Of a stretch of DNA of 64,000 nucleotides, positions 5,701 through 46,312 are shown piece after piece. The stretch is from Deferrisoma camini S3R1 (GTDB lineage: Bacteria; Desulfobacterota; Deferrisomatia; Deferrisomatales; Deferrisomataceae). The stretch's first letter is position 1. The number at the start of each line of letters is the position of its first letter. Where the stretch lies: contig NZ_JAFN01000001.1 in assembly GCF_000526155.1 (NCBI RefSeq), positions 3,784,264 through 3,848,263 of the forward strand. Reading direction: 5' to 3'. The position numbers and the translations under genes are program-made. The notes under the pieces were generated by a model. That model ran no database searches, was not told the origin of the DNA, and saw only the letters and a program-made list of their open reading frames with translations.

Positions 5701-6689
5701 CCGTGGGCACGCTGGTCGTGGACTCCAGCGTGGACGAGGTGCGGCGCGACGGCCAGACCCTCACCCTCTACAAGGGCGGAAAACTCCAGGGCCGGGTGCC
5801 GGTGCCCCCCCTGGAGCGGGTGGTGTTCCAGGGGGGCCTGCGGGTGGACACCCGGGCCCTCCACCTGCTGGCCGATCAGGGGGTGAGCGTCCACTTCCTC
5901 TCGGGGCGCCACGGCCAGTGGCGGGCCACCCTGGTGGGGCAGGCGCACAACGACGCCGGTGTTCGGATGGGGCAGTTCGCCGCGTACCACCACGGCCCTA
6001 CCCGGTTGGCGATCGCCCGGGAGATCGTGGAGCGAAAGCTTCGGGCCCAGGCCGACAACCTGCTCCTGTGGACCGAGGGGTCGCGCCCCGCCGATGCCAA
6101 GGCGTGTCGGGCGGCGGCCGCGGGCATCCTCGAGATCGCCGCGAGGGTGCCGGCGGCCTCGGCGGAGTCGCTGCTCGGTCACGAAGGGGCGGCGGCCCGG
6201 GCCTACTTCGACGCCCTGGCCCGGGTGGTTCCGGCTTCGTACGGGTTCGCCGGGCGGACCCGCCGGCCTCCCACCGATCCGGTCAACGCTCTGTTGAGCT
6301 TGGGCTACACCCTGCTCCACGCCGAGTGGGAGCGCCTGGTGCGCCTCGTTGGCCTGGACCCGGCCGTGGGCTTCTACCACGCCCTGGAGTTCGGCCGTCC
6401 GTCCCTCGTGTGCGACCTGGTGGAGCCGTGGCGGCCCGCCTACGACCGGTGGGTGGTGCAGCAACTGCGGGAGCGCGCGTTCCGGTCCACCGATTTCGCC
6501 CGCGGCGGGGCCCGGGCCGGCTGCTGGTTGAAGCCGGCTGCGAGAAAGCGCTTCTACCTCGGGTTCGAAGGCTGGGCCCAGCCGTTGCGGGGCGCGTGGA
6601 GAACCGAGGCCCGGGACCTGGCCGCCCGGCTGGCCGAGCGGGCGGCCGAGGCGCGGGCGGCGGAGGCGCCCGGGCACGACACGGCGTGA
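5697..6689 (+). CDS. cas1: CRISPR adaptation integrase Cas1 (canonical copy)
   Basis: Metal-dependent integrase of 330 residues. The N-terminal beta domain (TLVVDSSVDEVRRDGQ, KGGKLQGRVPVPPLERVV) precedes the all-helical catalytic domain. Conserved catalytic residues are visible: E164 in GHEGAAARAYF, H228 in GFYHALEFGRPS, and D240/E243 in LVCDLVEPWRP. FAGRTRRPPTDPVNALLSLGYTLL is the standard Cas1 block between them. The GTG start at 5697 overlaps the cas2 stop by 4 bases; a GTG at 5703 is an alternative. Together with cas2 it forms the functional adaptation module, unlike the second cas1-like gene at 10106. Confidence 0.93.
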   Translation: MTVGTLVVDSSVDEVRRDGQTLTLYKGGKLQGRVPVPPLERVVFQGGLRVDTRALHLLADQGVSVHFLSGRHGQWRATLVGQAHNDAGVRMGQFAAYHHGPTRLAIAREIVERKLRAQADNLLLWTEGSRPADAKACRAAAAGILEIAARVPAASAESLLGHEGAAARAYFDALARVVPASYGFAGRTRRPPTDPVNALLSLGYTLLHAEWERLVRLVGLDPAVGFYHALEFGRPSLVCDLVEPWRPAYDRWVVQQLRERAFRSTDFARGGARAGCWLKPAARKRFYLGFEGWAQPLRGAWRTEARDLAARLAERAAEARAAEAPGHDTA

Positions 6690-6736
6690 ACGGGTGGGTC
6701 GGTCCGTAGGGTTCGGGACCGGGGAGGTGGAACGCA

Positions 6737-8905
6737 ATGGCCGACCGTGCGCGAACGAGGACGAAACAGACCGCCCCGCGGGACGGGGTGCTCCTGTGCA
6801 CCCTGGGCACCACGTGGCTCGTGGTGCCGGAGATTCTGGGCTACCTGGATCCCGAGCGGTACCGGGTGTACCCGGCTTCGTGGTGGCGCGAGCGGGCGCC
6901 GGCCGGGGTGGGACCCCCGGCCGAGGTGTGGGCGGTCACCACTCTGGGCGATCTGGCCTTGGCCGGGGTGAACGCGCTGCGGCGGTACTGGGACCTCCTG
7001 GGGCCCGGCGCGCCGGCGCTGCACGTGTTCGCCCCCGAGGGGGTCGAGGACGTGGCCGGCGCCCCCGAAGACGACCCCATGGCCGAGCTGATCTATCGCT
7101 TGGGTCTGGCCGCCCGGGCCACCGGGGGGACCACCCTCTACAGCCTGGCGGGCGGCCGCAAGACCATGTCGAGCCTGCTCCAGAAGGCCGCGGGCGTGTT
7201 CGGGGCCGAGCGGGTGTTCCACGTGGCCTCGACCGGGGCGGCGGACCAGGAGACCCGCGGCATCGGGCCGGAGGACCTGGCCGCACACGGGCTCCCGCGC
7301 CGTGTCGCCGAAGGCATCCAGCCGGTGGACCTCGGCGGCGAGGAGCCCTTCGAAGGTCTCGATTGGCGCCTCGAGGGCATGGAGCCGGTCGTGCCCGGGC
7401 GGTTCCCGGTGGAGGGGACGGGCTCGGCCGAGGGGGTCACGATCGTGAGGGGGCTCGACGGCTCCCTGTACCGGGAGGTGGAGTCCCGACGGCGCGAGGC
7501 GCAACGGATCGCGGGGAACTACTTCCTGCACCTCCTGGGCCAGGACGCCCGGGAGAACTTCCGGAGCCTCTACCGACTGCCGGCCTCCCGCATCCGGGCC
7601 CTGCGGGAGGACCGGCTGGGCGCCGACCCCCGCCGCCGCGACGAGGAGCTTGCGTGGCTGCGGCGACTGCCCAAGGCGGACTTGCACTGTCACCTGGGCG
7701 GGGCGGCCCGGCCCGACGATCTCCCCCGGCTCGCCCGGGCCGCGGCAGCCGACGCCGGAGACGCCTTTGCCGAAGCCGAGGCGGCCGCAGCCGATCTAAT
7801 GGCGTGGTTTCGGCGCACCCCCCCGGCCGCGGAGCGCGGGGCCGAGGCTCGGCAGCGGATCCGGGAGGCCAGGGTGGGGGCGGGGCTCCCGCCCCAAGCG
7901 TTCACCGCGGCGGTGATCCTGGGGCTTTCGGCCGTGCCGGCGTGGCTCGACCTTCTGACGGACCCTTGGGCGGACAGGGGCGGATCGGCCGAGGACCGGC
8001 TCCGGACCTATTTCGCGGCCGGCGACCTCCAGGGGAGTTCTTTGCTCCAGGGGCCGCGGGCCATCGCCGAGGCCTGCCGGCTTCTCGTGGAGCGGGCGGC
8101 CGCCGACCGGGTGCGCTACCTCGAGGTCCGGTGCTCCCCGGCCAACCTGACCCGCGGGGGCCTTACGGCCGCCGAGGCCCTCGAGGCCATCCGGGCCGGG
8201 TTCCGCGCCGCGTGCGCGAGCGTGCCCGGGGCGCCCCGGGTCGAACTCTTGCTGATCGGCACGCGCCACAAGGACCCGGAGAAGTTCGCGACCCATGTCG
8301 CGCTCGCCACGGCCGACCACGACGGCCAGAGCCCCCGGGTCGTCGGGTTCGACGTGGCGGGCGACGAGTCCACGAAATCGCCCAAGGAGCTCCGGGACCG
8401 GTTCGAGCCGCTCTTCCGCCGGTGCCGCAAGATCACCATCCACGCGGGGGAGACCGAGCCGGTGGAGCGGGTGTGGGAGGCCGTGTACCACCTGAACGCC
8501 GACCGCATCGGCCACGGCCTCAAGCTCCTCGACCACCCCGAACTGCTCGCCCATTTCCGCGACCGGGGAACCGCCGTGGAGATGTGCCCCACCAGCAACG
8601 ACCAGGTCGTGGGGTTCGCCGGCCCCCGCCGCCGGGACGGGCCGGTGTACCCCCTGGGCCAGTATCTGAAGCGGGGTGTGCGCGTCTGTGTCTGCACCGA
8701 CAACCCGGGCCTGTCGCGCACCTCCTGGTCCGAGGAGCTGTGGGCGGCCGCGGCCATGACCCCCGGGGGCCTGAGTCGGTGGGACGTGCTCGCCCTGGTG
8801 CGCACCGGGTTTCAGGCCGCGTTCCTGCCGCTTCCCGACCGCGGTGATCTGCTGCGGCGGGTGGACGCCGAGGTGTACCGCACCCTCACGGAGGAGGTGC
8901 CATGA
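6737..8905 (+). CDS. cad1: CARF-adenosine deaminase fusion (Cad1-type CRISPR effector)
   Basis: A 722-residue fusion. Residues about 18-200 form a CARF domain (VLLCTLGTTWLVVPEIL at the start, TLYSLAGGRKTMSSLLQKAA around 140-160). Residues about 305-720 form a metallo-dependent adenosine deaminase domain: H317 and H319 in ADLHCHLGG, H569 and E572 in IHAGE, H593 in IGHGLKLLDH, D655 in CTDNPG. These match the zinc ligands and catalytic residues of ADA, except that the usual second Asp (TDDP) is Asn here. CARF-ADA proteins have been reported as Cad1, a cOA-activated deaminase acting on ATP. It lies between cas1 and the NE0113-type gene, overlapping the latter by 4 bases (ATGA). Confidence 0.9.
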   Translation: MADRARTRTKQTAPRDGVLLCTLGTTWLVVPEILGYLDPERYRVYPASWWRERAPAGVGPPAEVWAVTTLGDLALAGVNALRRYWDLLGPGAPALHVFAPEGVEDVAGAPEDDPMAELIYRLGLAARATGGTTLYSLAGGRKTMSSLLQKAAGVFGAERVFHVASTGAADQETRGIGPEDLAAHGLPRRVAEGIQPVDLGGEEPFEGLDWRLEGMEPVVPGRFPVEGTGSAEGVTIVRGLDGSLYREVESRRREAQRIAGNYFLHLLGQDARENFRSLYRLPASRIRALREDRLGADPRRRDEELAWLRRLPKADLHCHLGGAARPDDLPRLARAAAADAGDAFAEAEAAAADLMAWFRRTPPAAERGAEARQRIREARVGAGLPPQAFTAAVILGLSAVPAWLDLLTDPWADRGGSAEDRLRTYFAAGDLQGSSLLQGPRAIAEACRLLVERAAADRVRYLEVRCSPANLTRGGLTAAEALEAIRAGFRAACASVPGAPRVELLLIGTRHKDPEKFATHVALATADHDGQSPRVVGFDVAGDESTKSPKELRDRFEPLFRRCRKITIHAGETEPVERVWEAVYHLNADRIGHGLKLLDHPELLAHFRDRGTAVEMCPTSNDQVVGFAGPRRRDGPVYPLGQYLKRGVRVCVCTDNPGLSRTSWSEELWAAAAMTPGGLSRWDVLALVRTGFQAAFLPLPDRGDLLRRVDAEVYRTLTEEVP

Positions 8906-10032
8906 GCGAGCCCCGGACCGTGCTCGTGGCCCTGGCCGGGCTCACGCCCCAGGTGGTCACCGAGACCCTGTACGCCCTGTGGCGGGAGGGCGACGTGCCC
9001 TCCGAGATCCACGTGCTCACAACGCTTCCGGGCCGGCAGCGGGTGCGCGAGACCCTGCTCGACCCCCACCAGGGGGCGTTCTACCGGTTCTGCAGCGACT
9101 ACGGCATCGACCACCGCCGGATCCGGTTCGACCTGGGCACGGTGCACGTGCTCGTCACGCCCGACGGCCGGCCGGTGGAGGACCTGCGCACGGCCCGTGA
9201 GAACGCGGCCGTGGCCGACCAGTTGGCCGGGTTCGTGCGCGACCTCGCGACCGACCCGGGGGTACGCATCCACGCCAGCCTCGCCGGGGGGCGAAAGACC
9301 ATGACCTACTACCTGGGCTACGCCCTGTCGCTCTTCGGCCGGCCCGGCGACCGGCTGACCCACGTGCTCGTGTCGGAGGACTTTGAGGCCCACCCCGAGT
9401 TCTTCTACCCGCCGCCGCAGCCCGTGGATCTGCGGACCCGCGCGGACAAGCGCATTCGCACGGCCGACGCCCGGATCGACCTGGTGGACATCCCGTTCGT
9501 CCGGCTCCGGGAGTTCGTGCCGGCCGAGGTGCTCCGGGGCTCGTTTTCCGAGATAGTGGCCGGGGCCGAGCAGGCCCTGGCCGCCCGGTGCGGGGGGCTG
9601 CGGCTCGATCTGGACCCGGCCACCCACACCTTGTGGGCGGCGGGCCGGGAGTGCCGGCTTCGGCCCCAGGGGTTCGCGCTGTACCTGCACCTGGTGCTCG
9701 TGGCGGGTGAGACCGAAGAGCCCCTGCCGTTCCTCGAGCTGGTGGCCGAGCCGCGGGTCGAGGCCCTGTGGCCCGATCGGGCGAGGGAACTGGGTCTCCG
9801 GGGCGAGGAGGCCCGGGACCTGGCCGACCGCCTGGAGGCCCTGGCCCTGTCGAAGAAGGGCGACCGGAACTTCGTGTCGGCGGTGTCCAAGGTGAACCGG
9901 GCGCTTCGCGAGAGCTTGCCCCCGGCCGTGGCGGCCCGGCTAGAGATCCGCAGAGCCGGCCGGTCGCCGGTGCGCTACGCCGTGGGCATCGGCCCCGATG
10001 CGGTGCGGATCGTCCGAACCCGAGCCTCTTGA
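8902..10032 (+). CDS. CRISPR-associated CARF protein, NE0113 (TIGR02584) type, with C-terminal extension
   Basis: A 376-residue protein. The N-terminal ~200 residues match the NE0113 CARF family: VLVALAGLTPQVVTETLYAL (strand 1 and loop), TARENAAVADQLAGFV and IHASLAGGRKTMTYYLGYAL. The last ~150 residues are extra relative to a lone NE0113 domain and look helical with a winged-helix flavour (SKKGDRNFVSAVSKVNRALRE, then VRYAVGI near the end). This suggests a DNA-binding or dimerisation part and hence a cOA-responsive regulator, but that is inference. Start ATG overlaps the stop of the CARF-ADA gene. Confidence 0.8.
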   Translation: MSEPRTVLVALAGLTPQVVTETLYALWREGDVPSEIHVLTTLPGRQRVRETLLDPHQGAFYRFCSDYGIDHRRIRFDLGTVHVLVTPDGRPVEDLRTARENAAVADQLAGFVRDLATDPGVRIHASLAGGRKTMTYYLGYALSLFGRPGDRLTHVLVSEDFEAHPEFFYPPPQPVDLRTRADKRIRTADARIDLVDIPFVRLREFVPAEVLRGSFSEIVAGAEQALAARCGGLRLDLDPATHTLWAAGRECRLRPQGFALYLHLVLVAGETEEPLPFLELVAEPRVEALWPDRARELGLRGEEARDLADRLEALALSKKGDRNFVSAVSKVNRALRESLPPAVAARLEIRRAGRSPVRYAVGIGPDAVRIVRTRAS

Positions 10033-39340: not shown

Positions 39341-40648
39341 TTATTTGTATCTCGGTTCGGTGCAGTTGCCGCACACCCATGGATAGGTCCAGTCGGCTAC
39401 CTTTTTGGCGCTGTCGGGTAGGTACGGGCTCCAGGGTTCCGCACGGACGGGGCCGTCGGTCTGCCACACGATGTCGAACTGGCCGTCCTCTCGGATCTCG
39501 CCGATGAAGACCGGCTTGTGGAGATGGTGGTTCTTCGGGTCCATCCGAATCTCATACCCCGAAGGTGCCTTGAACGTCTGATAGCCCATGGCCTGCCTGA
39601 CCGCGTCCACATCCGTGGTGCCTGCTTGGAGCACGGCCTGTGCCCACATCTTGATCCCGATGTAGGTGGCCTCCATCGGATCGTTCGTCACCCGTTTGTC
39701 GCCGCCGGGGAGGTTGTGCTTCTTGACGTATGCCTTCCACTTCTTTACGAACGCCCGGTTCTCGGGGGAGTCTATGGACATGAAGTAGTTCCAGGCCGCC
39801 AGGTGGCCGACGAGGGGCGCCGTGTCGATGCCCCGCAGCTCTTCTTCACCCACGGAGAAGGCGATGACGGGGATGTCCTCGGCCCGGACCCCCTGGTTGG
39901 CCAGCTCCCTGTAAAAGGGCACATTCGAGTCACCGTTGATGGTGGAGATGACGGCTGTCGGTTTTGCTGCTGCGAACCTTTTGATGTTTGCGACAATGGT
40001 TTGATAGTCGCTGTGCCCGAAAGGGGTGTAGATCTCCATGATGTCGTCGTCACTGACGCCTTTTTGGTGCAGGAAAGCGCGAAGGATCTTGTTGGTGGTG
40101 CGCGGATACACATAGTCGGTGCCCAGCAGCACGAACCGTTTTGCGCCGCCGCCTTCCTCGCTCATGAGGTACTCGACAGCCGGGATCGCTTGCTGGTTGG
40201 GGGCAGCCCCGGTGTAGAAGACGTTGTAGGAGCACTCTTCCCCTTCATACTGCACGGGGTAGAACAGGAGGGCGTTGAGCTCTTCAAATACGGGGAGTAC
40301 AGACTTTCTGGACACCGAGGTCCAGCAGCCGAACACGACCGCAACCTTGTGCTTTTCGATCAGTTCGCGGGCCTTCTCTGCGAACAGGGGCCAGTTGGAG
40401 GCTGGGTCCACCACAATGGGCTCGATCTTCTTTCCCAGCAGCCCCCCCGACTCATTGATCTCCTCTATGGCCATCAGCGCAACGTCCTTCAGGGAGGTTT
40501 CGCTGATGGCCATGGTCCCAGACAGGGAATGCAGGATGCCGACCTTGATGACCCCGTCCTCTGCGGCGCCATAAGAGGGCGTAGTCAGAAGTGCGCCGAG
40601 CGCCGCTGCGGCGACCATGGTCCTTACCCGTCTTCTCCCTTGCCGCAT
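39341..40648 (-). CDS. urtA: Urea ABC transporter substrate-binding protein UrtA
   Basis: A 435-residue periplasmic binding protein. Signal peptide with hydrophobic core VAAAALGALLTT and cleavage near YGAAEDG. KVGILHSLSGTMAISETSLKD, VVFGCWTSVSRKSVLPVFEE, GTDYVYPRTTNKILRAFL and DPMEATYIGIKMWAQAV are the UrtA family blocks. First gene of the urt-ure unit, about 290 bases downstream of an IS4 insertion. Confidence 0.95.
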   Translation of the reverse strand: MRQGRRRVRTMVAAAALGALLTTPSYGAAEDGVIKVGILHSLSGTMAISETSLKDVALMAIEEINESGGLLGKKIEPIVVDPASNWPLFAEKARELIEKHKVAVVFGCWTSVSRKSVLPVFEELNALLFYPVQYEGEECSYNVFYTGAAPNQQAIPAVEYLMSEEGGGAKRFVLLGTDYVYPRTTNKILRAFLHQKGVSDDDIMEIYTPFGHSDYQTIVANIKRFAAAKPTAVISTINGDSNVPFYRELANQGVRAEDIPVIAFSVGEEELRGIDTAPLVGHLAAWNYFMSIDSPENRAFVKKWKAYVKKHNLPGGDKRVTNDPMEATYIGIKMWAQAVLQAGTTDVDAVRQAMGYQTFKAPSGYEIRMDPKNHHLHKPVFIGEIREDGQFDIVWQTDGPVRAEPWSPYLPDSAKKVADWTYPWVCGNCTEPRYK

Positions 40649-40941: not shown

Positions 40942-42411
40942 CAATACTGTTCACTTTAAGATACGAACGTGTTCGCAAATGGGCTGCAGTCGCATGGGCG
41001 AGACCGTTTGGCGATGCCGAGTCGGATACGGGGTCATCTTCCGCTTCACCGCTCGCGGGTTGCGTCGACCACGACTGGACACCACTCGCTCTTCCAAAAT
41101 CTCCTCCAGCACCTGCGCATGGAACGCCGCCCTGTGCTCAGGGGGGAGTGGCGACGAAAGCGGGCAGTCTCCGACGCACCACCCGCACCGTGTGAACGAA
41201 GGAAAGTTCGTCAGGATCCACATCGCCCTTGCGGGCGGCTTCATGCATGAGTCCTCGTATCGCAAAATGCGCCATCAGGAACCCAAAGAACTCCTGTCGG
41301 ACGAGCTCCGGGGTCTTGCTCCGGAGCACAATCCGAGCCCCTCGGAGGTGCGTTTTCAACTCGTCGAGTGCAGTCTCGATCTCCCAGCGTTCCTGGTACA
41401 GGGCGGCCAACTCCTCTGCCGGGGCATCTTCAGGGTCGAGGATCGTGGTCACCAACCGGTACACGTCCTCTGCGCCTGGGACTCCGTCCAGTGTGTACTC
41501 GATCACCCGGACCATGACACCGCCCCGATCCTTTTGGCGAGCATAGGCGTTGGGATAGATCTTGCTCAGATAGGAACCATCGGACAGACGGCGGATGCAC
41601 GGCAGGCGTGCGCTTGCCTTCACTCGCCACAGCAGATCGGCTCCGGTTGCGCAGGCCTGGGTCCACAAGGGCCAGGAGAAGAAACACCGATCGGCCAGAC
41701 ACAGCATCCCGGGCCGCAAGGACTCCACCACGTGCCGAGCCAACGCGACCTCGCTCGTGTGGTATCCACCCATGCGGGAGCCGAACAGCACGTGGGTTCC
41801 GTTCTCCACCAAGGAGACGAACCGGATCTGCGGATAGGCGCTCCGTCCCCGGGCGGCCTTGGGGCGTCCGAAGGCTTGTTCGTTCTCCTGAGTATCGGCC
41901 ACATCCAAGGTGCTGCCGTCCAGGCTGACCAGCCGCCAGCGCCGGTACCACGCCCCTCGGGTGGCCGTTTCGGCGATCGGCCGGACGAGTTCGTTGTGCA
42001 GCCGTTCGATCGGTTCCGCCCCCAGACGGGACCGCGCTTGGGAGATGGCCGATTTTCCGGCAACGCGAACGCGTTCACGGGGCCCCATGAGCCACTGGAG
42101 ACCTTCGAGCAAACAGCGGAGCACCTCTCGTGTGGACACGCTCATGTACAACGCCAGTGCGATCACATAGTAGACCACGACATGGGCAGGTAAGGCGCGC
42201 TGTCGCTGGCTCGCCTTGCCTGTGGCTTGCAGCACCTCGTGCACCTTGGGCAGGGGGAACGTTTTTGCGATGACCCCCAGCGTGATGTAATCCGTGATCC
42301 GCGTGCCTTCGGGAAGCCCTGCTGGAGTTCGAGCCATCCTTCACCTCGCTTTCCATGAGTAAGGAAGACGAGAGAAGAATAGCACGAAGGCACACTAAGT
42401 GAACAGTATTG
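40942..42411 (-). mobile_element. IS4-family insertion sequence, copy B (1470 bp)
   Basis: Same element as 19783-21252, inverted. Ends CAATACTGTTCACTT and complement; 10-bp target duplication GTCCTAGTGG at 40932-40941 and 42412-42421. The perfect duplication and identical length indicate recent transposition without later rearrangement at this site. Confidence 0.96.
41138..42337 (-). CDS. IS4-family transposase (copy B)
   Basis: A 399-residue DDE transposase with the same sequence as the product at 19857-21056, including the YQERWEIETALDELK (Y-R-E-K) signature. Intact. Transcribed towards urtA, so read-through could reach the urt operon. Confidence 0.96.
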   Translation of the reverse strand: MARTPAGLPEGTRITDYITLGVIAKTFPLPKVHEVLQATGKASQRQRALPAHVVVYYVIALALYMSVSTREVLRCLLEGLQWLMGPRERVRVAGKSAISQARSRLGAEPIERLHNELVRPIAETATRGAWYRRWRLVSLDGSTLDVADTQENEQAFGRPKAARGRSAYPQIRFVSLVENGTHVLFGSRMGGYHTSEVALARHVVESLRPGMLCLADRCFFSWPLWTQACATGADLLWRVKASARLPCIRRLSDGSYLSKIYPNAYARQKDRGGVMVRVIEYTLDGVPGAEDVYRLVTTILDPEDAPAEELAALYQERWEIETALDELKTHLRGARIVLRSKTPELVRQEFFGFLMAHFAIRGLMHEAARKGDVDPDELSFVHTVRVVRRRLPAFVATPP

Positions 42412-42935: not shown

Positions 42936-43643
42936 ATGGAGCGACATAGCCTTCTGACCCTGATCGAGAACACGGACCCCGGGATCGTGCTGTTCGACGA
43001 CCGGTTCACGGTGCGCTACATCAACCGGGCGTTCCTGATGATCTTCGCCGGGATCACGAGCGACGACGTGTTCTCGGGCGACATCATGCGGTTCCACGAC
43101 GAAGCGGGCCGGGAGCGGATCCGGCAGATGTTCCGGCTGATGAAGGACTCGAGCCGCCAGGTGCCGTTCTCGTTCAAGCGCATCGGCGACGGCCGCGACG
43201 ACCGCTACCTGTTCCTGAAGCTGATCCCCCTGCTGGACCGGGACATGGCCGACGCCCTCAACTGCATGCTGGTGTACGACATCACCCCGTTCGTGGCCGA
43301 CCGGGAGCGCACCTTCATCAAGATCCCGGTGAGCGCGGGCCGCGAGATCCACCTGCTGGACCCCGACGAGGTGCTGTTCCTGCGGGCCGACAACATCTAC
43401 TCCCGGGTGCACACCCCCGAGGGCGAGTACTTCTGCGATTTCTCCCTGGGCTTCGTGGAGGAGCGCCTCCCCCCCGACCGGTTCTACCGGATCCACCGCA
43501 GCTACATCGCCAACCTGGCCCGGGTCCGCAAGGTGGTGCGCGGCTCCAGCGGCTACACCCTGCTCATGCGGGGCAGCGACCTGCCCCTGCCCGTGAGCCG
43601 GGCCCGGGCGCCCGAGCTGTTCTCCCGCCTGGGCCTTCGCTGA
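42936..43643 (+). CDS. PAS-LytTR single-component regulator, RcoM-like CO sensor
   Basis: A 235-residue protein. N-terminal PAS domain (PGIVLFDDRFTVRYINRAF, SGDIMRFHDEAGRERI). C-terminal LytTR DNA-binding domain (DEVLFLRADNIYSRVHT, FYRIHRSYIANLARV). PAS-LytTR proteins of this layout beside CO dehydrogenase genes are RcoM, a haem protein that activates CO-oxidation genes on binding CO. H54 in RFHDEAG is a candidate haem ligand, but RcoM residue numbering could not be matched with certainty. Position directly upstream of cooS supports the role. Start ATG 42936 is chosen at the PAS domain; the frame is open further upstream without homology. Confidence 0.75.
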   Translation: MERHSLLTLIENTDPGIVLFDDRFTVRYINRAFLMIFAGITSDDVFSGDIMRFHDEAGRERIRQMFRLMKDSSRQVPFSFKRIGDGRDDRYLFLKLIPLLDRDMADALNCMLVYDITPFVADRERTFIKIPVSAGREIHLLDPDEVLFLRADNIYSRVHTPEGEYFCDFSLGFVEERLPPDRFYRIHRSYIANLARVRKVVRGSSGYTLLMRGSDLPLPVSRARAPELFSRLGLR

Positions 43644-43659
43644 GACCGGCCGCCGCAGC

Positions 43660-43708
43660 TCACCAGTCCCTGGCGGCCCCTCACCAGCCGTGGGCGCAGG
43701 TGGCCAGT
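43660..43708 (+). promoter_or_regulatory. Candidate RcoM/LytTR operator: periodic direct repeats before cooS
   Basis: CTCACCAG at 43660-43667 and again at 43681-43688 (21 bases apart), with a weaker third copy GTGGCCAG at 43701-43708. LytTR proteins bind direct repeats about two helical turns apart. The array ends a few bases before the -35 element at 43716, as expected for an activator site. Confidence 0.5.
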
Positions 43709-43715
43709 GCGGCCT

Positions 43716-43744
43716 TGAAGCGGTCCCCAGAACGGGGTTTGATC
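43716..43744 (+). promoter_or_regulatory. Predicted promoter of cooS
   Basis: TTGAAG (43716-43721), 17-base spacer, TTTGAT (43739-43744). A good -35 and a moderate -10, directly downstream of the direct repeats. The leader to the cooS ATG is about 40 bases and ends in GGAGGTG. Confidence 0.5.
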
Positions 43745-43787
43745 TTCCCCGGCCTGCCCGACGCAACCGCCAACCGGAGGTGACACC

Positions 43788-45701
43788 ATGGAGCACAAGG
43801 CACCGAAGCGAAGCGCGGACCCCGCCGGCGTGGAGATGCTCGAGATCGCGGAGCGCGACCGCCTGGACTCCGTGTGGGAGCGCCTGGAGCGACAGCAGCC
43901 CCAGTGCGGCTACGGCCAGCTCGGCACCTGCTGCCGGATCTGCGTCATGGGCCCGTGCCGGATCGACCCCCTGGGCGAGGGGCCCATCCGGGGGGTGTGC
44001 GGGGCCACGGCCGACACCATCGTGGCCCGGAACCTGGCCCGCATGGCCGCGGTGGGCGCGTCGGCCCACTCGGACCACGGCCGCAAGGTGGCCCTCACCC
44101 TCAAGGAGGTGGCCGAGGGCACGGTGACCGACTACCGGATCACCGACACCGAGAAGCTCACCGCGGTGGCCGCGAAGCTCGGGATCGCGGTCGAGGGCCG
44201 GTCGTTCCCGGACGTCGCCAGGGACGTGGCCGACGCGGCGCTCCACTGCTTCGGAAAGCAGGACGACCAGCCCATCTCGTTCCTCGAGGCCTACATGCCG
44301 GCCAAGCGGTTCGAGCGACTCAAGAAGCTCGAGGACGACCTGCTGGCGTCCACCGGCGCCAGGTACGGGCTCCTGCCCCGGGGCATCGACCGCGAGTCGG
44401 TGGACATCCTCCACCGCACCCACTTCGGGTGCGACGCCGACCCCCTGTCCCTGGTGCTCCAGTCGGTGCGGTGCTCCCTGGCCGACGGGTGGGGCGGGTC
44501 CCTGATCGCCACCGAGCTCCAGGACGTGCTGTTCGGCACCCCCCGGGTCAAGACCGTGCGGGCCAACCTGGGGGTGCTCGAGGAGGATATGGTCAACCTC
44601 ATCGTCCACGGCCACGAGCCCATCCTCTCGGAGAAGGTGGTGGAGCACGCCCTGTCGGACGAGATGCAGCAGCGGGCCCGGGACAAGGGGGCCCAGGGGA
44701 TCAACGTGGCCGGCCTGTGCTGCACCGGCAACGAGGTGCTCATGCGCCAGGGGGTGAACGTGGCCGGCAACGAGCTCCACAGCGAGCTCGTGATCATGAC
44801 CGGTGCGGTGGAGGCCATGGTGGTGGACGTCCAGTGCATCTACCCGGCCCTGGCCGACCTCGCGGCCTGCTACCACACCAAGCTCATCACCACCAGCGAG
44901 CAGACCAAGATCCCGGGCGCCCTCCACATCCAGTTCGAGGAGCACCGGGCCGACGCGGTGGCCCGCCGGATCGTGGAGACCGCCATCGACGCGTTCGAGG
45001 CCCGCAACCGGGGCCGCGTCTACATCCCGCCCCACTCCGAGGAGGCCGTGGTGGGGTTCAGCGTGGAGGAGATCCTCAAGGCCCTGGGCGGCACGGTGGC
45101 GCCCCTGGTCAAGGTGATCGCCGACGGCGCGATCAAGGGGGTGGTGGGCGTCGTGGGGTGCAACAACGTCAAGGTGCGCCAGGACTCGTTCCACCGGGAG
45201 CTCACGGCCGAGCTGATCGCCCGGGACATCCTGGTGATCGGCACCGGGTGCTGGGCCATCGCGGCGGCCAAGGCCGGCCTGATGCAGCTCTCCACTCGGG
45301 AGCAGGCCGGCCCGGGCCTCAAGGCGGTGTGCGAGCAGCTCGGCATCCCGCCGGTGATCCACATGGGCTCGTGCGTGGACTGCTCGCGCATGCTCGTGCT
45401 CGCCGGGGCCCTGGCCGACCACCTGGGCGTGGACGTGGACGCCCTGCCCCTGGTGGGCTCGGCCCCCGAGTGGACCACCGAGAAGGCCGTGGCCATCGGC
45501 ACCTACTTCGTGGGCTCCGGGGTGCCGGTGCACCTGTGGCCCGTGCCCCCGGTCCTCGGCAGCCCCGCGGTCACCAAGATCCTCACCGAGGACGCCAAGG
45601 GGGTGCTCGGCGGCTACTTCTTCGTGGAAGAAGATCCCAAGGCCGCCGCGGACCGGATGGAGGCCATCATCGCCGAGAAGCGCGCCGGGCTCGGCCTGTG
45701 A
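43788..45701 (+). CDS. cooS: Anaerobic nickel carbon monoxide dehydrogenase, catalytic subunit CooS
   Basis: A 637-residue Ni-Fe-S enzyme oxidising CO to CO2. Cysteines for clusters D and B are C40, C48, C49, C52, C57 and C71 (CGYGQLGTCCRICVMGPC). C-cluster ligands are all present: H274/H276 (IVHGHEPI), C311/C312 (AGLCCTGNE), C350 (VQCIYP), C458 (VVGCNN), C488 (GTGCWA), C529 (MGSCVDC). No acetyl-CoA synthase gene is nearby, so this is a monofunctional CODH feeding electrons to the adjacent CooF and flavoprotein. First gene of a three-gene operon. Confidence 0.97.
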   Translation: MEHKAPKRSADPAGVEMLEIAERDRLDSVWERLERQQPQCGYGQLGTCCRICVMGPCRIDPLGEGPIRGVCGATADTIVARNLARMAAVGASAHSDHGRKVALTLKEVAEGTVTDYRITDTEKLTAVAAKLGIAVEGRSFPDVARDVADAALHCFGKQDDQPISFLEAYMPAKRFERLKKLEDDLLASTGARYGLLPRGIDRESVDILHRTHFGCDADPLSLVLQSVRCSLADGWGGSLIATELQDVLFGTPRVKTVRANLGVLEEDMVNLIVHGHEPILSEKVVEHALSDEMQQRARDKGAQGINVAGLCCTGNEVLMRQGVNVAGNELHSELVIMTGAVEAMVVDVQCIYPALADLAACYHTKLITTSEQTKIPGALHIQFEEHRADAVARRIVETAIDAFEARNRGRVYIPPHSEEAVVGFSVEEILKALGGTVAPLVKVIADGAIKGVVGVVGCNNVKVRQDSFHRELTAELIARDILVIGTGCWAIAAAKAGLMQLSTREQAGPGLKAVCEQLGIPPVIHMGSCVDCSRMLVLAGALADHLGVDVDALPLVGSAPEWTTEKAVAIGTYFVGSGVPVHLWPVPPVLGSPAVTKILTEDAKGVLGGYFFVEEDPKAAADRMEAIIAEKRAGLGL

Positions 45702-45715
45702 GCGGGGAGGGAGCC

Positions 45716-46312
45716 ATGAAAAAGATCTTCGTGGACTACATGCGTTGCGTGGCGTGCAAGGGGTGCGAGATCGCGTGCGCGGTGGAGCACCATCCCAGCC
45801 GGAGCCTGCTCGGCCTGGTGGGGGACGCCCGGACCCAGGTCAACGTGCGGGTGCTCGCCGTGGAGCACGAGGCGTTCCCGGTGTCGTGCCGGCACTGCGA
45901 CCCGGCCTGGTGCATGGACGCGTGCCCGGCCGGGGCCATCTCCCGCGACCCGGTCACCGCCGCGGTGATCCTGGACCAGGCCAGGTGCAAGGCGTGCGGC
46001 ATGTGCGCCATGGTGTGCCCGTTCGACGCCATCGCGTTCAAGGTCACCCACGCGTCCCCCGACGGCCGGGAGACCGCGTTCAAGTGCGACCTGTGCTCCC
46101 ACCGGGTCCGGGAGGGGCGGCTTCCGGCCTGCGTGGAGGCGTGCCACTCGGGCGCCCTGGCGTTCCGCGAGCACGAGGAGGTGCGCCGGGACCGGGCGAC
46201 CCGCAACCTGCGGGAGTACCTGCTCGGCCAGCGCGCCCTGCCCGACACCTTCGCCCTGTACCGCGAGCTCCGGCGCAAGGAGTTCGCCCGGCGCGGGGAG
46301 CCGGCGCCGTGA
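45716..46312 (+). CDS. cooF: CooF-like 4Fe-4S electron carrier of CO dehydrogenase
   Basis: A 198-residue ferredoxin-type protein with four cysteine groups: CVACKGCEIAC, CRHCDPAWCMDAC, CKACGMCAMVCP and CDLCSHRV...CVEAC, in the order of CooF/HycB-type polyferredoxins. It takes electrons from CooS. The preceding GGGAGGGAGCC is a good ribosome-binding site; its stop overlaps the GTG start of the flavoprotein, so electron transfer partners are translationally coupled. Confidence 0.92.
   Translation: MKKIFVDYMRCVACKGCEIACAVEHHPSRSLLGLVGDARTQVNVRVLAVEHEAFPVSCRHCDPAWCMDACPAGAISRDPVTAAVILDQARCKACGMCAMVCPFDAIAFKVTHASPDGRETAFKCDLCSHRVREGRLPACVEACHSGALAFREHEEVRRDRATRNLREYLLGQRALPDTFALYRELRRKEFARRGEPAP

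Follow-up and report, generated by a model that had tools for sequence, protein, structure and literature searches.

Does the PAS-LytTR protein encoded just ahead of the CO dehydrogenase gene cooS in Deferrisoma camini act as a CO sensor of the RcoM type, and does it reach the cooS promoter through the direct repeats that lie in between? The locus is found in a stretch of 64,000 nucleotides ("the window") of a 4.24-Mb genome assembled as a single contig. The rcoM-cooS clusters of Geobacter, Pelobacter and D. camini, the last without cooC, were published in 2015 together with the proposal that RcoM controls the Geobacter cluster (PMC4703632). RcoM control in Geobacter and Pelobacter is mentioned, with reference to Kerby 2008, in a paper of 2014 (PMC4257681), and a Deferribacter cluster was published in 2019 (PMC6896113). 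The first-pass annotation of this DNA had presented the locus as a new lineage and context for RcoM-cooS, a claim that falls with these publications: the locus is an ordinary, known gene pair and not a new system. The cluster descriptions in PMC4703632 and PMC6896113 contain no operator or ligand analysis, and these two aspects are addressed here.

Gene content and gene order

The genes of the locus are the following:
42936..43643, + strand, rcoM-like gene, 235 aa (ORF with PAS and LytTR profile matches)
43788..45701, + strand, cooS, catalytic subunit of the anaerobic Ni-CO dehydrogenase, 637 aa (TIGR01702)
45716..46312, + strand, cooF-like 4Fe-4S electron carrier, 198 aa
46309..47526, + strand, FNOR-type FAD/NAD(P) oxidoreductase, 405 aa, GTG start

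A PAS-LytTR gene preceding cooS-CooF-flavoprotein genes had been read from the letters alone, and this arrangement is borne out by the ORF at 42936-43643, by its LytTR match (E 1e-21, 77 bits) and by cooS, which scores 722 bits against the TIGR01702 equivalog cut-off of 478. A gap of 144 nt separates the rcoM-like gene from cooS, which is preceded by a GGAGG at 43776-43780, and the cooF stop is overlapped by the FNOR GTG start. The cluster lacks cooC. The description of the D. camini cluster in PMC4703632 gives the same genes in the same order, cooC being likewise absent, whereas in the G. sulfurreducens cluster cooC is located between cooS and cooF. The order rcoM-cooS-cooC-cooF-FNOR applies to Pelobacter and Deferribacter as well (PMC4703632, PMC6896113).

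The surroundings of the locus hold genes of other kinds. An IS4-family DDE transposase (Pfam; 41138-42337, - strand) lies about 600 nt upstream of rcoM; on its other side is the gene of a periplasmic binding protein, of urea-transporter type by resemblance (39341-40648). Downstream, convergent with the coo operon, the segment 47551-51911 (- strand) carries a P-II nitrogen regulator gene (Pfam) accompanied by ORFs similar to glnD and to an ammonium transporter gene. Elsewhere in the genome, two further cooS-type genes are present (L065, 6607-8487, - strand; L066, about 6612-8459, - strand), 53% and 46% identical.

The closest homologues of the regulator, defined at E <= 1e-18 among 395 genomes of the phylum, occur in 15 genomes from 6 families and adjoin cooS in 14 of them. 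The order is rcoM-cooS-cooF-FNOR in the window, rcoM-cooF-cooS-nuoE-nuoF-like in family f16, rcoM-cooS in f41, and cooS-rcoM in f67, f31 and f94. In one f16 locus (L039, 841-3019, - strand), nuoE/nuoF-like genes replace FNOR, the same regulator and operator thus accompanying a different electron-transfer module. In another genome of the window's own family (G003, assembly 92% complete), an intact rcoM, 91% identical and with its His and Lys kept (L038, around 8940-9644), has neither a coo operon nor repeats beside it, only a cooS-like fragment being found at a contig end; a recent loss of the coo operon is possible. The cooS of G270 (L048, 2795-5816) seems interrupted, residues 5-602 and 602-636 being encoded about 1.1 kb apart, perhaps by an insertion.

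The sensor protein and its putative haem ligands

The protein is composed of a PAS sensor domain (about residues 8-120) and a LytTR DNA-binding domain (residues 137-232). The TIGR00229 sensory_box model is matched above its cut-off and PAS_4 with E 1.4e-4, 0.6 bits under the Pfam cut-off; profile search finds no receiver or kinase domain in its 235 residues. Kinship to RcoM, suggested in the first-pass annotation, is supported by comparison with the LytTR protein encoded beside coxMSL on a plasmid of Paraburkholderia (P. aromaticivorans), the only plasmid match with a query coverage of 80% or more. This "coxMSL-side RcoM" is 24.7% identical to the window protein over 96%, aligns with it in hhalign at 99.7% (E 4.7e-26, 224 columns), shares its haem His, and finds the window gene alone in this genome. 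For this protein, a CooA-type assignment, with a CRP/FNR fold and a palindromic site, was considered and rejected, a LytTR domain and direct repeats being found instead.

In RcoM, the haem is ligated by a His/Met pair (PMC9670170), and Met104 of RcoM-1 is named in a title cited by the same paper. Relative to its His, the coxMSL-side RcoM carries Cys at +20, +53 and +56 and Met at +30. This pattern matches His74, Cys94, Met104, Cys127 and Cys130 of RcoM-1. In the window protein, His54, which is taken here to be the equivalent of the proximal ligand His74 of RcoM-1, is the likely proximal haem ligand; it is invariant in 17/17 sequences (15/15 and two later relatives) and is also conserved in four relatives of His/Met type. 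At the position of RcoM Met104, by contrast with RcoM-1 and RcoM-2, the distal Met is absent in 17/17 in both hhalign and MAFFT alignments. According to hhalign and a first MAFFT alignment, an invariant Lys81 takes this place. A richer alignment puts F, I or L there with Lys81 next to it, the register differing by one residue, and a strict equivalence of Lys81 and Met104 was dropped once this shift appeared. In FixL, an Arg acts as distal hydrogen-bond donor. Lys81 may ligate the haem, be a distal hydrogen-bond donor, or point away from it. A structure model built from four sequences (pLDDT 52) is too poor to judge the haem pocket, and a fold search with this low-confidence model returns generic PAS matches, including haem PAS domains (EcDOS, FixL, SrrB and Aer2) and LOV domains.

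The Met is kept in four other Desulfobacterota relatives, which lie beside cooS in L099 and L101 and apart from it in L100 and L102. Judged from these alignments, a single phylum holds both His/Met and Met-less RcoM types. A tentative reading, possible rather than probable, is that the Met-less proteins form an anaerobic RcoM-like clade with Lys in place of the distal Met (a His/Lys haem) or with no distal ligand, the three-repeat operator being kept. If true, such a His/Lys or distal-ligand-free switch would represent a different ligand chemistry, with presumably a different CO affinity, from those of RcoM and CooA.

Direct repeats upstream of cooS

The gap between rcoM and cooS contains CTCACCAG at 43659-43666 and again at 43680-43687 (period 21), followed by a third, divergent copy, GTGGCCAG, at 43700-43707 (period 20 from the second). 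Seven nucleotides separate GTGGCCAG from TTGAAG (43715-43720), and a further 17 nt lead to TTTGAT (43738-43743). The first-pass annotation, which had reported two CTCACCAG copies 21 bases apart, a weaker third and TTGAAG-17-TTTGAT, was accurate to the letter, with the third copy at a spacing of 20 instead of 21. In the register of the cross-family motif (see below), the elements read:
43656..43664, + strand, operator copy 1 (predicted), CAGCTCACC (cross-family motif, genus conservation)
43677..43685, + strand, operator copy 2 (predicted), CCCCTCACC, 21 bp after copy 1 (cross-family motif, genus conservation)
43697..43705, + strand, operator copy 3 (predicted), CAGGTGGCC, 20 bp after copy 2 (cross-family motif, genus conservation)
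43715..43743, + strand, predicted sigma-70-type promoter of the coo operon, TTGAAG-17-TTTGAT

Copy 3 in this register (43697-43705) ends 9 nt before the -35, and a predicted start at 43750 puts the repeat centres near -49, -69 and -90. The promoter hexamers match the consensus weakly, and the promoter is not listed by a simple promoter scan at default thresholds.

Judged on their own sequence, the window repeats are weak evidence and only suggestive, as 2-5% of tiles match them: among 442 tiles of 144 nt taken at random from the window, 9 contain two identical 8-mers at period 20-22 and 24 attain the triple score. The CTCACCAG pair with a 12-14 nt spacer has a single occurrence in the 4.24-Mb genome, for a pattern picked after the fact. 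Relatives were therefore compared. The two other genomes of the genus retain all three copies with a single-base exception in one of them, and their spacers have diverged. With the three genomes taken together, 2 of the 36 positions that make up the repeats, -35 and -10 are variable, versus 30 of the other 108 positions of the gap (Fisher p = 0.005). This conservation makes the repeats more than chance. The earlier reading had been staked on their conservation in related genomes, which is now found both within the genus and across families.

The predicted operator in other families

A three-copy motif model with a period of 20-21 bp, fitted to 13 coo upstream regions, scores 96.9 versus 56.8 +/- 2.5 for shuffled sequences, which ignore relatedness; G396 and G414 were excluded from the operator tests, having no cooS on the piece or a cooS cut by the contig end. 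Shared ancestry inflates this pooled score, and held-out tests were therefore run. With training restricted to f16 and f41, which leaves out the window's family, the best triple of the window gap falls exactly on its three repeats (p 0.016 in shuffles; equalled by 50 of 1774 overlapping tiles). Requiring in addition a TTG 9-10 nt later leaves 3 sites in both strands of the 64 kb, among which the cooS site alone has 4/6 bases of a -10. When trained on f1, f16 and f41, the motif finds a triple upstream of cooS in 5/5 held-out genomes of f67, f31 and f94 (p 0.001, 0.001, 0.043, 0.006 and 0.004), although rcoM there follows cooS. With this same motif, the operator is not found at the genome's two other cooS genes (p 0.56 and 0.44).

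When all sites of a locus (7-13 kb) are ranked, the one upstream of the coo genes comes first in 6/11 relatives and within the top three in 3 more; in L040 and L046 it fails. The window repeats fit the cross-family motif only moderately, 54 sites being equal or better when 128 kb (both strands) are scanned with no promoter requirement. In family f11 (L099 and L101), found later, CCGTTTATC-12-CCGTTCATC is present in the rcoM-cooS gap; these sites rank 1 and 2 of their locus under the frozen motif, and the second copy is followed, by eye, by 9 nt and TTGATC.

The four f16 genomes display three copies at 20-21 bp, 9 nt, TTGnnT, 17 nt and CATnnn, the repeat register of L039 having been fixed by eye to match its family ahead of later training runs. 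In the f41 genome L042, 10 nt lie between the last copy and the -35. Ahead of their coo genes, three lineages share one layout: three units of CnKTTYAYM at a period of 20-21 bp, then 9-10 nt, a -35, 17 nt and a -10. Repeats without this full promoter layout are present in three more families, and a clear -35 geometry is not seen in the families with cooS ahead of rcoM. The operator prediction for the coo branch, made from sequence comparison, is well supported.

Repeats of this kind may extend beyond coo genes. In G311 (L100, 4381-4788 and upstream), CCGATTATC-12-CCGTTCATC-9-TTGAGC lies between the gene of a His/Met RcoM relative and a rubrerythrin-family gene, an arrangement that suggests RcoM control of a rubrerythrin; these repeats are not top-ranked in the motif scan.

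Proposed mechanism and alternatives

In the RcoM-1 operator, spacers of 12-13 bp separate three direct repeats, and activators of the RcoM1 type occupy sites upstream of the -35 (PMC11347149). The mechanism proposed here is drawn on this analogy, and the repeats are read as an operator because the three-repeat layout recurs in distant relatives. The PAS-LytTR protein is most probably a single-component haem sensor for CO, of the RcoM type, which switches on the coo operon via the three repeats. The PAS domain would hold haem on His54, and CO binding to this haem would enable a dimer or higher oligomer to place its LytTR domains on the CnKTTYAYM repeats, which, being 20-21 bp apart, would lie on one helix face. 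Once occupied, with the last copy 9 nt before the -35, they would activate cooS-cooF-FNOR, whose products would oxidise CO and pass the electrons via CooF to NAD(P).

The alternative that survives best, although unlikely, is that CO is not the signal: the PAS domain would respond to redox state, O2, NO or another cofactor, and the protein would control the coo operon accordingly. The missing distal Met, replaced by F/I/L and then the invariant Lys, would fit such a change, as would the low-confidence fold matches to generic PAS domains that include flavin-binding LOV domains; the invariance of the haem His, and a CO dehydrogenase adjoining the gene in nearly every genome that has the protein, argue for CO and haem.

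Slightly less likely still is a repressor relieved by CO, in the manner of CoxC at PcoxB. CoxC of Afipia carboxidovorans is, like the regulator studied here, a LytTR protein with three direct repeats, 18-21 bp apart, and it responds to CO and represses (PMC11347149). CoxC is located in the membrane and has a copper-dependent MHYT sensor, whereas the window protein carries a soluble PAS domain. The CoxC operator overlaps the -35, whereas copy 3 stops 9 nt short of it both in the window and among the f16 relatives, a position upstream of the -35 that is that of RcoM1 and most LytTR activators (PMC11347149) and points to activation rather than repression. Chance repeats, with cooS controlled elsewhere or constitutive, would agree with the 2-5% significance of the single sequence and are nonetheless highly improbable given repeats conserved within the genus and a layout conserved across families.

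Relation to known RcoM systems

The proposed CO-responsive activator resembles RcoM-1 and RcoM-2 of Paraburkholderia xenovorans in its PAS-LytTR architecture, its haem His and three direct repeats at 20-21 bp near a promoter. It differs from them in its motif, CnKTTYAYM against TTCNNGCA in RcoM, the leading T-T-pyrimidine alone being common to both, and in its setting: RcoM-1 and RcoM-2 target aerobic cox genes, whereas the adjoining genes here form an anaerobic Ni-CODH operon. The open literature searched, which does not include the original RcoM papers, reports no operator for the RcoM-cooS branch and no missing Met. The operator and the Met-less RcoM clade thus seem new, the gene pair itself having already been reported. 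The ligand change, as predicted from the alignments, is interesting, if unproven.

These results supply a testable operator for the RcoM branch tied to anaerobic CO dehydrogenases. His/Met and Met-less types both adjoin operons of this kind, which allows a direct comparison of what the distal ligand contributes to CO sensing.
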